From: Paramecium tetraurelia
Lineage: Eukaryota > Ciliophora > Oligohymenophorea > Peniculida > Parameciidae
Length of the DNA: 64,000 bases
Assembly: GCF_000165425.1 (NCBI RefSeq)
Contig: NW_001799066.1
Span: 702,601-766,600, forward strand
Direction of reading: 5' to 3'
Of this stretch, positions 4,186-10,698 are shown in pieces. The first letter of the stretch is position 1, and the number at the start of each line of letters is the position of its first letter. The position numbers were made by a program, and so were the translations under genes. The notes below the pieces were generated by a model. The model worked only from the letters and a program-made list of their open reading frames with translations, was not told where the DNA came from and made no database searches.

Positions 4186-5842
4186 ATGGAAATCAGCAAT
4201 CGCCAAGACATCGAAAAATTGATAGCTTACAGCAAAAGTATTCAAGTTGGTCTCATCGAAGATGTATTTATCTGAGCTATCCCAGGATTTCAATGATCAA
4301 TACACTCCCCCTGAGAAACATGTCTATGAATCAGAAACACTTCCTGACATAAAATTAGAAGAATTCGAACCTAATCTAAATGAAGATGAAATGCTTAAAT
4401 TATTAAAACAGAATGTTCAATCTGCTAAAATGAAAGAAAGTGTGAGCAGTGAACATGATAGTCTCGACAGTTAAGATTCAATTGAAAGGAGATCCACTCC
4501 TCCAAAACGTAAATAATAATGAGTTGATCCTCAAATCCAAATCCAAATCCCTGTCTAGAAAAGCTAAACTACTGTAGACATGACAGAGTACAACAAAGTT
4601 CCTGAAGAAGTCTTGTAATTATTGGACGGAGCAAAAGAACGCAAATCAATGCTGGGTGCAGCCATTAAAAATACTAAAGGAACCAGCATGTTATTGCAAT
4701 CACAGGGAAAGCCTATTAAGATTTACTTTTTTAACACTCAATAACACATTCAACTCAATGTTACCAAAAGTACTACAGTCCTATAAGTTATTAGAATAAG
4801 CATAACTGAATATTATAAAAATAACAATTACGATTAGAGATTATTGAGATATCCTGATAATGTTGATGCTTACGAAATAAGATTTGTTGATGATGACTAT
4901 GAATTCAAAGCAGAAATGGCGTTTGGTGCTATTGATAAAAAAAAAGAAATCCTCTCAACTTAGACGAATGTTTTCTCTCTTATTGAAATAAGTAACTACA
5001 AATCACAAACTAATGATATGCAGATCTTAGAAAAAGTTAATCCAAATATGATCCTTGTTGATGTCTTGATTATTGACTAGAAACCTGAAAAGAATGTCAC
5101 TACAAAAATTTAATTAGATAAAAATTCTATTGTTCAAGATATATTCACTTAGATTAATAAAAAGAATAAATAAGTAAAATCTCATTAACTAACTAATAGA
5201 TCAATCAAATAGATTATATTATTCAATTAAATGATGATGACACTCTTTTAGATCTAGATTTAAGAATGCCAGTAGCTCAATTATAGAATAAAAAAGTTTA
5301 AATAAAATAAAAGACTTGGGCAGATTAGGCAGAACAATAATTCGTTAATAGTTAAAGAAGAGATACTATTACAGAACATGATGATTATGTTGATGCTCCC
5401 TTAAATCATATCCAAGCATTTAAATATGAAAAGTTTACAGTGGTTAAAATCAATGAAAGAGGAAAAAGATAGGATAGAATATTAGGAATTGACCAATTCA
5501 GAATTTATAATATGAACAAAAAGGAAAATTTAGGTATCTTCTCATCTAAGACTAATCTTAGGATTGTTTGAGAGGATTTTAAACAATAAAAACTCAGGTA
5601 CAAAGTTCCCATAGAGATTAATAGAAGATATTGTTGATATTCGGATTGCTCATTAATTTTTATACATTACTTTTAGATAAGAGAGTATTTTAATAATTTA
5701 TTTATTAGATGACTTCAAAGAATTGAAATTTGATACTTTAGATTCTAAAATTGCTTAAAAAATATACAAGAAGATTAATTTTATCCGAGACTTTTAGATA
5801 ACAACTTAAAAATATAGAGCTTCTATTTAAAAATTAGATTGA
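4186..5842 (+). CDS. SIN1/AVO1-like TORC2 subunit (CRIM, Ras-binding-like and PH regions)
   Basis: Exons join through introns at 4264-4285 (22 nt), 5174-5199 (26 nt) and 5534-5561 (28 nt) and end at TGA 5840-5842. The CRIM-type ubiquitin-like fold is clear: IKIYFFNTQQHIQLNV followed by VDAYEIRFVDDD, matching the acidic AYELRxxEDDGE element of SIN1. A second ubiquitin-like stretch follows (IIQLNDDDTLLDLDLRMP). A PH domain then opens with FKYEKFTVVKINERGKRQDRILGID. SIN1 anchors TOR complex 2 at membranes and presents AGC kinases. Oddity: an in-frame TGA at 4520-4522 separates the acidic N-terminal part from the CRIM part although both sides read in one frame. No ordinary intron removes it. The left 330 nt may therefore be a separate small gene, with SIN1 starting near ATG 4580. 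Confidence 0.75.
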
Positions 5843-5888: not shown

Positions 5889-8800
5889 TCACATCAATCC
5901 AAATCCTTCACAATTTTATAATGCTATTTGCAGTTTCATTATCATTTTATCAATTGAATCATACTATGGCAGTAATAATACATTAAAACAGGTATGAGCT
6001 GATGGCAATTATTCCGAATCTTAAGTAATATAAATCAACTTTACCTTCTCCATGTTTTTAAATTAAGAATTTTAATGATTTTAAACCACCTACAGGAATT
6101 CTATCAGAACCAGTGCAAAAAAACAAAAATCTTTTTTATTATTCTTCATTTAGTGTTCTTAAAAATGTCCAAAATTATCTAAGGTATAAACAATAAAGCT
6201 AACTTTATGTATTCAGAATTGTAATCGAACCCATCATACTCTGTTGAATCCTCTAATTCCTTAAGATTCAAGTTTTTTTATCCAACAATTAATTATTGTA
6301 ATTCGGAGCCTGAAAATAATTTAATTCCATTTCCCTCCACCACTCTCCAAAATCCTTATTTAAAAGAATTAAATGTTGTTTCAATTTACAGATTTAAATA
6401 ATAGTTAGTGCATAATCTTATATATTCATGCTTATTTTATTGTGTTACCATTATTTCAGTTCCATTAGGCTAAATATAAGTATAATAAATTATACAAGTA
6501 ATTCCACATTAATAATGTCATCCCGTATTGTTTCAGTAATAGTAAAATTCAAAGCAAATACATCCTCGATATTATCTTATTCATATTAAGCAAGAGCATT
6601 GAGTCCTTTATAAACTTCGAGATCTAATTCTTTTAAATCTTCAAGACAAGTGGGCTCATTCATCAATTTTTTAAAAATGACTTCTGGAAATTAGAGATCC
6701 AAACACACTAATTTATTTGATTTATACCTTAATTATATAATGCTAATCCTAGAATCATGCCAATCAACTCATATTTAAATGGCATTTCCATATTATTTTT
6801 ATTAAACCATAATATTGAGTTATTATTTTTGGGAACAAACATTCCAAAATTTATATCAAATAACTTTTATGTCAATAAAGAGAAGAATTCTCTTGCTAAC
6901 CCTCCTTAGTCGATACCTTGTTCTCCTTAAAATACAATTTAAAGTTAAGCCTTTAAGTTAATATCCTTTCTTGATAGGGATACTAAAGCACTAGTAACAA
7001 CATCATTACGATCAATCATCAATTATAAAAATGGTTAATAAAACATAAATGAATTTTGAAATTAGCTCTTTTAATTCATTTTAGAATCGATGGCTAGAAT
7101 TTCACTTTTGAATTCCAGAGGTATCACCCATGGATATTGACAAAAAGTAAAATAATATCTTTCTAAGTTTTATATACTATAACTATCGAATTAAATGTAT
7201 TCTAACTAATTACCATATTTTGGATACAATGTAGCAATTTCTGATATTTGAAATCTAGTTAGATTTAATAGTTTAAGAGTTTTATTAGAATTATAAAATA
7301 CCTATAAGAGTTCAAGCATTTGTTTAACAAATTGGATTTCTGTTTTTTTTAATAATGGTATATGTTTCTTTGATTGTTATTTTAAGTAATTTCCCATAAT
7401 TTCAATAATTGTTGAAGTATATCTGATGAAATATTCATCAGGCAATATTTTAAGATAATTTGATAAAAGATCCTTATCTTCTTTACTTAAAATTAGAAAC
7501 ACTTCTATAATTCTATTCCCTTCTTAATATAATAAATTATTGAAGCATTTAAAATGCATAATAATAATAATAGCTCTTACAAAATATATACTTTATTTGT
7601 AATTTGAAACCAAATTTTCCATCCATAGTTTAAGAGTTTTTGCATCTAATACATCATTCACCAATTAAATAGCTGATAAATTCAATTCAGGATTTGAATT
7701 TTTATAATTAATAACATCATAGCAATTATTAAAATTTAGAATAAAAGATGCTCCAAAACTATTTGGAAAAATGGACAACTCAGTTAAAGCAACAACTATA
7801 TTATCATTATCCTGTAATTATTGAATAGGTTTTAATTCATTAATCTAATTCCAACATACAGTTGTCCAATCTAAGTAATCCTACTTAAACTATTCAATTA
7901 AATAGTATTATAGAGTTTTCCTATCAAATTCAATTTAGGAAAATATCGGATTACTTTTGCAATAATTCCTATCACAAATAAATTTACCACATCCTTTTGA
8001 TGCTTTCTAGTAAATGTGTCTAAAATCCTCAGAACAAGAAATCTAAAATTTTCATGAATAATACTTTGATATCCAATTAATCATATTGCCATTTTCCATC
8101 TATTTAGATATCAATAATTATTAAATCTGCATTATAAGATCCAATAGTAAGATTTTCATTTAAAATTTCTCCATTGAAATGTCCCTAATGCTTCTCCAAC
8201 TATTTAATAGCATAATCAGCTTAAAAATGCTTATGTTTCCATAATCTAATCTATTCAACATTGACTTAAAATTCATTTTTAATTGCCAAGCACAATAGTT
8301 ATATCCATTATTTTATAATGCAATCTTAATCTACCTATAGAACTCCTCTTTGTGGGTTTAGTACATTAATATATACAGATTACTAATTTAATTATTAGTG
8401 TTACTCTTAATAAATTTACATTTAAAGAAGGAACACCTTGTTAATTGAAATATACATTTCTTGGTATAGTCATCCCAACACCATATTCAGTTCCCCAGAC
8501 ATCAATCATTAGTTTATTTACCTGAGATAATATTTATAATATCCTACCAAAATAAAATCTTCAGACTATAATTTTATAATTTATTAATTGAAGGAATTAT
8601 CTCTAGGGTATTTTAATAGAAAATTCTCTTTACTACACAAGTCGCAATTCAATGCTCCAGGCTAATTCATGAAATATCTTATACCTTCTCTCTCTTCTCG
8701 TTTGGCGCAATCCCTTATATATACTCAACGTAGTATTACCATTAGCGAAACCACTATTTGGAAACAACATATAATTGCTTACTACTATCCTTAATTGTTT

Positions 8801-8897
8801 TCAAACTCTAAGATGATATCAATATTACCTTACTTGTTTAATAATATAGAATTATTTCCTTTTAAAAAGGAGTTATCTCTTGCCTGATTTTATTCAT
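5889..8897 (-). CDS. HECT E3 ubiquitin ligase with N-terminal DUSP-UBL and AZUL domains
   Basis: ATG at 8895-8897 opens a DUSP domain (LYVVSKQWFRQWQYYVEY, then PGALNCDLC). A ubiquitin-like segment of USP4/11/15 type follows (VEQIRLWKHKHF, then ENLTIGSYNADLIIIDIQ and DGKW). A UBE3A-type AZUL zinc domain comes next, with GCGKFICDRNYCKSNP keeping the GCG-x3-C-x4-C spacing. The C-terminus is a HECT domain with the catalytic Cys in LPSAHTCFNVLLLP and the C-terminal phrase CEGFGLM before TGA 5889-5891. Short phase-consistent introns link the parts: 23 nt (DUSP), 26 nt, 22 nt before the UBL, 22 nt between UBL and AZUL, and 25 nt at 6020-6044. AZUL plus HECT is UBE3A architecture; the deubiquitinase-style front end is not usual for HECT ligases. 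The product is about 950 residues. It converges with SIN1, 46 nt between stops. Confidence 0.8.
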
Positions 8898-8933: not shown

Positions 8934-9906
8934 TCATTAAATTTTCTTTTTCTAAATCTCATCAAAACCATTAATCATATTATCTTAAAATTCATGCCTA
9001 AATGTTAATTCGCATGCCTTGAGAGGCTACCTTAAATTTTAATTAAAAATTTCAAGTAAATGTTAGGCCAATTCTTTTCTTAAGATTTTTTGCTATTCCC
9101 AAGTTTGATATTAGTTTTTAATTTTATTCAATTATTCAATGATTCTTTTGGCAATACCTATTGATTAATTTTGTTTTACTCTATAAATGAAATTTTATTT
9201 CCTATTCCTTCTCACTTTTCATCTATAACTCAAGTAAATCTAAATTAGAATTGAAAATTACCATAGTCTTGCTTTCTTTTTTCCAATGCCCCTTACAAAT
9301 CCTACACTGACTGTTTTAATTCTTAAATTTGGCTCTCTTAAACCTAAAATTTACTCCTCTATTATTCTATTATCTCTTATTAACTTTTCTTCAAATCCTA
9401 TTTTAGTAATATACATTTATACATGTAATTAATCTCTTTCTTCTTAAAGTTTTTCTATTTATTATTATTAATTCTGTAATTACTCCAAAAATTAGACATT
9501 TTCATTATTTATTTCTGATGTTTCCTTTTTTCTTTAAATAAGTTAATCAATTTAGTTTTGCAGGGATTTAATTTAATCTTTCTAATCGCTTTATAACTAT
9601 TAATCTTTTAAGAGATATTGGGATTATTTTTAAAGCAATTCTTCAGACTTTTACTCTTTTATATAAGTGTATTAATACAGTATAGTTAAAAGTCTTTGAA
9701 AAGTTACTGATAGTTAGCTTTTGTCTCATTTAATTCAGATTATAAAAAGGAAATTGTATTCATTAATTCCTAATTACATCAAAGATGATATGTTATATTA
9801 CCTAATCTTTTTAATTGGGTATTATGGAAGAACTGCTATTTTTACCATTAAAAATTGAGAAGTCCTGTGATTTTTCTATTATAAAAATGACATCTTTGGA
9901 ATCCAT
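8934..9906 (-). CDS. Coiled-coil protein, unidentified
   Basis: Start ATG at 9904-9906, stop TGA at 8934-8936. Five introns (32, 23, 25, 22 and 22 nt) join exons rich in Gln, Glu and Lys heptads. Examples are KSEELLQKQSQYLLKDQQL, NENVQFLEQLQNQQQQIEK and SQIQELKQSVQDLQGALEK; the C-terminus is more globular (RQPLKACELTFRHEFQDNM). The product is about 280 residues, mostly long coiled coil, as in many basal-body and ciliary scaffold proteins of ciliates. No family was recognised. It lies 36 nt upstream of the HECT gene start on the same strand. Confidence 0.65.
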
Positions 9907-10059: not shown

Positions 10060-10497
10060 TCAGTGAGATTTTCTGATTTTTTTTTAAATGCCAGGTTCGT
10101 TGATTCTTTATTTAAATTATCGTAGAAGTTCTTGTTCTTCTTCAGATAAAAAATTATCGTAGGAATAATCAAAATCATTATTTTAATCATTTGAATCATT
10201 CTGTTTCAACAAGTTTATCAGACTTTTGATTGACTCGATCGATTCATATTGAGACAATTAATGATCATAGAGTATTTTCAAATCTAATTTTGACAATGTG
10301 TGGTAAGCCTCATTTATTCGATGAAATTGATCTAATGCAAATGCTCGTTATTCTCTGTTTTTATCCTAAATTTAGTTAAATAGAATACAGGATGCCATCT
10401 CAAGGCCAATTTATGATATGCTTTCTTTATTTGCGGCTACTTTGCATCTCTCTTAACACCTAGGATATCATAGTGATTGCCAATCATTAATTTTTTT
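10060..10497 (-). CDS. Small DnaJ (Hsp40 J-domain) protein
   Basis: ATG at 10495-10497 starts a J domain at the very N-terminus: NHYDILGVKRDAK, then KKAYHKLALRWHPDKN. The HPD motif that stimulates Hsp70 ATPase is split by a 23-nt intron at 10366-10388 (HP before it, DKN after). The J domain covers about residues 4-70. An acidic, helical tail (LSEEEQELLRQFKQRI) follows, ending at TGA 10060-10062. The product is about 137 residues and lacks the Gly/Phe and zinc regions, so it is a class C J-protein. Its Hsp70 partner and location cannot be read from the sequence. Confidence 0.85.
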
Positions 10498-10698
10498 CTA
10501 ATTTTGCTTAAAGCTTCAAATTAATATTTATTATATAACAAAATTAACTTCTAGAATTTTCGAATTTATTTCATTAAAACATTATAGAAATTTTAAATCC
10601 AAAAAGAAACTCAAATAAACTTCTAAACACCATGAATTACAATTTGTTTCAATTTAGATAATATTAATTTGACAAATAAAACTAAATTAATAAACCCT

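Follow-up and report, generated by a model that had tools for sequence, protein, structure and literature searches.

The gene at positions 5889..8897 (minus strand) of the window, the 64,000-nucleotide stretch of DNA analyzed here, raises the question of whether the DUSP and UBL-like segments typical of deubiquitinases truly belong to the same protein as an AZUL-HECT ubiquitin ligase and, if they do, what they contribute to it. Read with ciliate code 6, in which TAA and TAG encode glutamine, 8897..5889 forms one gene of 932 codons plus TGA, starting with the ATG at 8897 and ending with the TGA at 5889, exactly the extent given in a preliminary description of this DNA. The G+C content of the window is low, which, like the code and the very short introns, suggests a Paramecium. 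The gene is interrupted by nine GT..AG introns of 20-26 nt each (8828-8808, 8684-8662, 8547-8522, 8404-8383, 8064-8043, 6727-6708, 6495-6470, 6203-6179, and 6044-6020), and its domains follow one another in the order DUSP, UBL-like segment, AZUL zinc module, middle region, and HECT. A splice-aware aligner recovered the identical nine introns; since the aligner was given the protein, independent support for the gene model comes from the paralogues. Directly upstream, on the same strand, inspection by eye revealed a glutamine-rich, coiled-coil-like gene (8934-9906), whose stop codon precedes the ATG of the ligase gene by 36 nt. A minus-strand reading frame at 10060-10500 looks by eye like a DnaJ domain (HYDILGVKRDAK).

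When the genome (69 Mb in 231 contigs, the window included) was searched at the protein level, five further genes emerged, on contigs C211, C23, C226, C209, and C201 (loci L036 to L040, in that order), each of which was followed by splice-aware alignment from near the N terminus to the stop codon. The order DUSP, UBL, AZUL, HECT was present in all six genes, so that the arrangement proposed in the preliminary description for one minus-strand gene is borne out both by the gene model and by five paralogues. Introns after residues 23, 64, and 102 are common to the six genes. An intron at the DUSP/UBL border likewise occupies one alignment column in all of them, while the intron-position comparison places it five residues apart between two branches. 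These two deep branches share 27-31% identity in the DUSP and 54-56% in the HECT. In the three pairs compared, dN/dS was 0.05, 0.20, and 0.20 for the DUSP, 0.09-0.12 for the UBL, and 0.05-0.11 for the AZUL; the ratios were calculated with a Nei-Gojobori script, and when L036 is paired with the window gene, synonymous sites approach saturation and the HECT gives no ratio. The family, front end included, is under purifying selection. Five paralogues with the same order, together with a DUSP dN/dS of 0.05-0.20, make chance or a mis-joined model very unlikely, and confirm that the architecture is real and not an annotation accident.

The C-terminal part of the protein is a HECT domain (5895..6878, minus strand; residues 636-931), which contains four introns and was found in the whole 932-residue protein above the curated Pfam cut-off (PF00632, E value of 2.8e-92). 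Among solved structures, the best phmmer match of the whole protein over the HECT was UBE3A, with 286 bits, and the next family reached 196. The codon of the putative catalytic residue C900, within the motif HTCFN, lies at 5988..5990 (minus strand), as judged from the sequence and its alignment to UBE3A. The middle region (6879..7853, minus strand) leads up to the HECT, and its part from residue 545 onward can be aligned to the stretch of UBE3A that directly precedes the HECT there. By phmmer bit score, the HECT of the window gene is UBE3A-like, and its active-site motif is intact. The genome contains 74 HECT matches, grouped by eye into 30 loci; the six family loci were read over the whole gene, and two protein searches served to assess the rest. 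Matches starting before query residue 545 occurred only at the six family loci. When the N-terminal part of L039 was compared with the genome, 17 of 18 matches fell at family loci and one at the DUSP of C185, a USP locus.

Between the front end and the middle region lies an AZUL-type zinc module (7854..8042, minus strand; residues 248-310). Four cysteines that putatively bind zinc (C265, C270, C275, and C310) are conserved without exception across the six genes. The module is not N-terminal in the window gene, about 247 residues preceding it. Pfam AZUL lists four of the six family members (best E value, 0.005); the AZUL piece of the window gene scored 16.3 bits (E value of 0.012), below the cut-off of 23.8, and the whole window protein gave no AZUL row in Pfam at E values up to 1. 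The Pfam AZUL family had no match in the genome itself, a null that is weak because the same search also misses the DUSP-UBL-AZUL-HECT family. With an AZUL profile built from the six members, the nine best of 18 PDB matches were UBE3A, four of them at E values of 0.008-0.018 (best, 0.0081) and five at 0.32-0.33. In addition, phmmer placed a weak UBE3A AZUL match (4.8 bits) ahead of the HECT in the whole protein, the same order as in UBE3A. An AlphaFold model of the AZUL stretch was of low confidence (mean pLDDT, 47.8).

The AZUL of UBE3A binds Rpn10, and the contact residues in the AZUL-binding segment of human Rpn10 are F334, L335, V338, and L339 (PMC7064531, in the part available). The Rpn10 homologue of this genome (L060, G000:C37, approximately 4864-5472) contains UIM-like stretches. 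In its tail, read through a hand-made join, a QDxxFLxxLL run resembles by eye the first helix of the human AZUL-binding segment. A second AZUL-binding helix was not evident by eye in this tail, and the tail had no match in the PDB.

Near the N terminus, the DUSP domain (8450..8780, minus strand; residues 33-126, exons 2-4) scored 50.2 bits against a Pfam cut-off of 29.3 (PF06337, E value of 3.7e-13), and Pfam DUSP lists all six family members (E values up to 10; best, 3.9e-14). The DUSP-UBL stretch of the window gene alone matched nothing in the PDB at E values up to 1, while a six-sequence DUSP-UBL profile found USP4 and USP15 structures as its best matches (USP4 5ctr, E value of 9.3e-6). In a profile-profile comparison, the DUSP part matched human USP4/11/15 at 3.2e-10. 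No UCH or other peptidase domain was found in the 932-residue protein (Pfam, E values up to 1). Chance resemblance to a DUSP was rejected on the basis of the five paralogues and dN/dS. A USP that had lost its catalytic domain was also rejected, as a full HECT occupies that place. A search of viral contigs with the DUSP-UBL profile gave 28 pattern matches, none of which was confirmed.

From the loci behind the DUSP matches of the genome, eight USPs with UCH were fetched, along with eight loci that have no UCH match close by; L047, L048, and L049, also fetched, were outside the Pfam scan. In each of the USPs L052-L055 (four of four), a phase-0 intron can be placed directly behind VNLL[R/K] so as to put the UBL in frame, and some of them also allow other joins. 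This intron shares its alignment column with the DUSP/UBL intron found in the six HECT genes, where the corresponding residues are VNLLR in two and PNLAR in four. In L050 and L051, candidate introns lie nearby, about seven columns off. A tree of 15 DUSP-UBL stretches unites the six HECT copies (79/78) and places L052-L055 (group a) nearest to them (fork, 86/86); L050-L051 and human USP4/11/15 lie on the opposite side. The tree holds six of the eight fetched USPs, L056-L057, the group without UBL similarity, having been left out. The supports of these two forks lie under the tool's star, long branches join one another, and rooting was at the midpoint, so that the position next to group a is no more than suggestive. 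By eye, L052-L057 carry a MYND-like zinc finger between the UBL and the catalytic domain.

Collectively, these findings are best explained by a UBE3A-type HECT ligase that has gained the DUSP-UBL of a USP and uses it as a docking module on partners of DUSP-bearing proteases, an explanation to which we give an even chance. The front end of a ubiquitin-specific protease would have been acquired probably once, before the oldest duplication of the family. The idea of an ancient fusion, raised in the preliminary description, is upheld inside this genome by the introns after residues 23, 64, and 102 and the DUSP/UBL intron that all six genes have in common. In the proposed mechanism, the HECT would accept ubiquitin from an E2 at Cys900 and hand it on to substrates, while the AZUL might tie the ligase to the proteasome or to another UBE3A partner. 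The DUSP-UBL would dock the ligase on partners that are also bound by the DUSP-bearing proteases of the cell, and ligase and protease could thereby act on shared complexes or compete for them. In favor of docking, DUSP-UBL mediates some enzyme-substrate interactions (PMC4624187, in the part available). Counting against it, the likeness in the Rpn10 (C37) tail is limited to the first helix and the tail had no PDB match, the third USP group is without UBL similarity, and the tree joins long branches at fork supports under the star.

Alternatively, the DUSP-UBL may work in cis, folding back on the HECT or the middle region and thereby controlling catalysis, which on our analysis is possible but rather unlikely. 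In USP4, contact between the DUSP-UBL and the catalytic part helps the product to leave, and the role described for the DUSP is faster ubiquitin release within the same molecule (PMC4243247, in the part available); this favors action in cis and counts against docking. Action in cis would also be in line with the 39 DUSP-UBL columns that are invariant in the six genes. However, no UCH domain and hence no USP4-type switching loop was found in the protein, and the catalytic fold of HECT ligases is not related to that of USPs.

The UBL-like segment (8065..8382, minus strand; exon 5, residues 142-247), which was assigned by profile comparison with the USP UBLs of the same genome, is the weakest part of the architecture. 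It gave no Pfam row in the window protein or in the family members, the family profile hit no UBL of the PDB in this part, and the AlphaFold model of the exon was of low confidence (mean pLDDT, 43.6). Pfam Ubiquitin_3 had no match anywhere in the genome, and the controls of that search gave none either. Against human USP4/11/15 UBLs the segment scored 15.6 (best of 50 column shuffles, 14.7), against L056-L057 it showed no similarity (10.7; maximum of 100 shuffles, 18.6), and against all eight USPs pooled it reached 25.2 (maximum of 100 shuffles, 23.2). These results would fit a segment of unrelated fold after the DUSP, the front end then being a DUSP alone. We consider this improbable, for the segment resembles the UBLs of two of the three same-genome USP groups (E values of 9.6e-5 and 2.6e-4), with scores of 30.1 against L050-L051 (shuffle maximum, 18.0; 64 aligned columns) and 28.4 against L052-L055 (shuffle maximum, 24.1; 36 aligned columns), each from 100 shuffles. 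Furthermore, an RxW motif and the border intron are common to the segment and USPs of the same genome.

The front end might also be a lineage-specific shuffle of little consequence, in which a common DUSP came to sit on a HECT ligase without a special role there. DUSP is indeed frequent in this genome, with 47 matches, 45 of them above the cut-off; this number is a lower bound, because the search misses the six HECT genes, in which the DUSP is cut by introns. By comparison of the lists by eye, 38 of the 47 matches have a UCH match no more than about 2.5 kb away, and three more, at two loci, proved to have a UCH piece alongside when read. The remaining six comprise four with DUSP alone in the scanned pieces, one above the cut-off outside the Pfam scan, and one below the cut-off. 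In the four DUSP-alone pieces, L043 (2982-4649), L044 (4473-4970), L045 (4360-4773), and L046 (4667-5074), Pfam found nothing else, which suggests that DUSP may have left proteases elsewhere in the genome too and may exist there as a module outside them. While such stretches without a peptidase found would suit an inconsequential shuffle, the front end has been kept in all six copies, with a DUSP dN/dS of 0.05-0.20, and we regard this explanation as a little less probable still than a false UBL.

Finally, two neighboring genes, one encoding DUSP-UBL and the other AZUL-HECT, could have been read as one, a reading that the exact position of a window gene intron at the UBL/AZUL border would favor but that is hardly credible given that only 22 nt part the two there, that four of five paralogues run through without an intron, and that the order holds in all six genes. 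This intron (8043..8064, minus strand) is found in the window gene and L036, with a length of 22 or 26 nt, and is absent from L037-L040, where the border lies inside one uninterrupted exon, contradicting a gene boundary between UBL and AZUL such as the preliminary description had allowed for. The length of 22 nt given there for the window gene was correct, and its location, near 8060-8085, becomes 8064-8043.

A combination of DUSP-UBL with AZUL-HECT was said in the preliminary description to be without a described example, and this agrees with the literature searched, with the qualification that AZUL-HECT by itself had already been reported in Tetrahymena, Oxytricha, and Trichomonas (PMC5913265, in the part available), in a text from which the word DUSP is absent. 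A search of the literature on HECT with DUSP, with the eukaryote-wide HECT survey PMC3673628 outside its scope, found no DUSP-bearing HECT ligase in the parts of the sources available. The available parts of a study of USP4/15/11 evolution (PMC4624187) and of a survey of the eukaryotic ubiquitin system (PMC4327156) contain no ciliates with a DUSP-HECT combination, HECT occurring 0 times in the former and DUSP 0 times in the latter. The DUSP-UBL-AZUL-HECT architecture may be catalogued somewhere without description.

More broadly, there is a somewhat less than even chance that the family is a conserved ligase family wearing the control module of a deubiquitinase, such that writer and eraser would dock on the same scaffolds or obey the same switch. 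If true, it would represent a natural exchange of a regulatory part between writer and eraser not described before. DUSP-UBL is known mainly in proteases, where its part in catalysis is not easily told apart from its part in recruitment. In a ligase family with the module minus the protease, the role of the module could be tested directly, since its function there cannot depend on a protease domain. The six copies also offer a natural experiment in which ubiquitin writers and erasers exchange parts, and the unusual mix may let both meet the same partners.

Among known systems, USP4, USP11, USP15, and the DUSP-bearing USPs encoded in this genome resemble the window gene in having, near the N terminus, a DUSP and behind it a UBL-like segment; with group L052-L055 the window gene also shares the DUSP/UBL border intron. 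In contrast to these proteases, no USP catalytic domain was found in it, and a ligase domain is present instead. With UBE3A (E6AP) and the fungal HUL4A AZUL-HECT ligases it has in common a four-cysteine AZUL ahead of the HECT, the latter closest to UBE3A among solved structures. It differs from them in that its AZUL is internal, with about 247 residues of DUSP-UBL ahead of it, and from UBE3A in the longer spacing between the third and fourth AZUL cysteines, which is 34 residues in the window gene and 28 residues in UBE3A.
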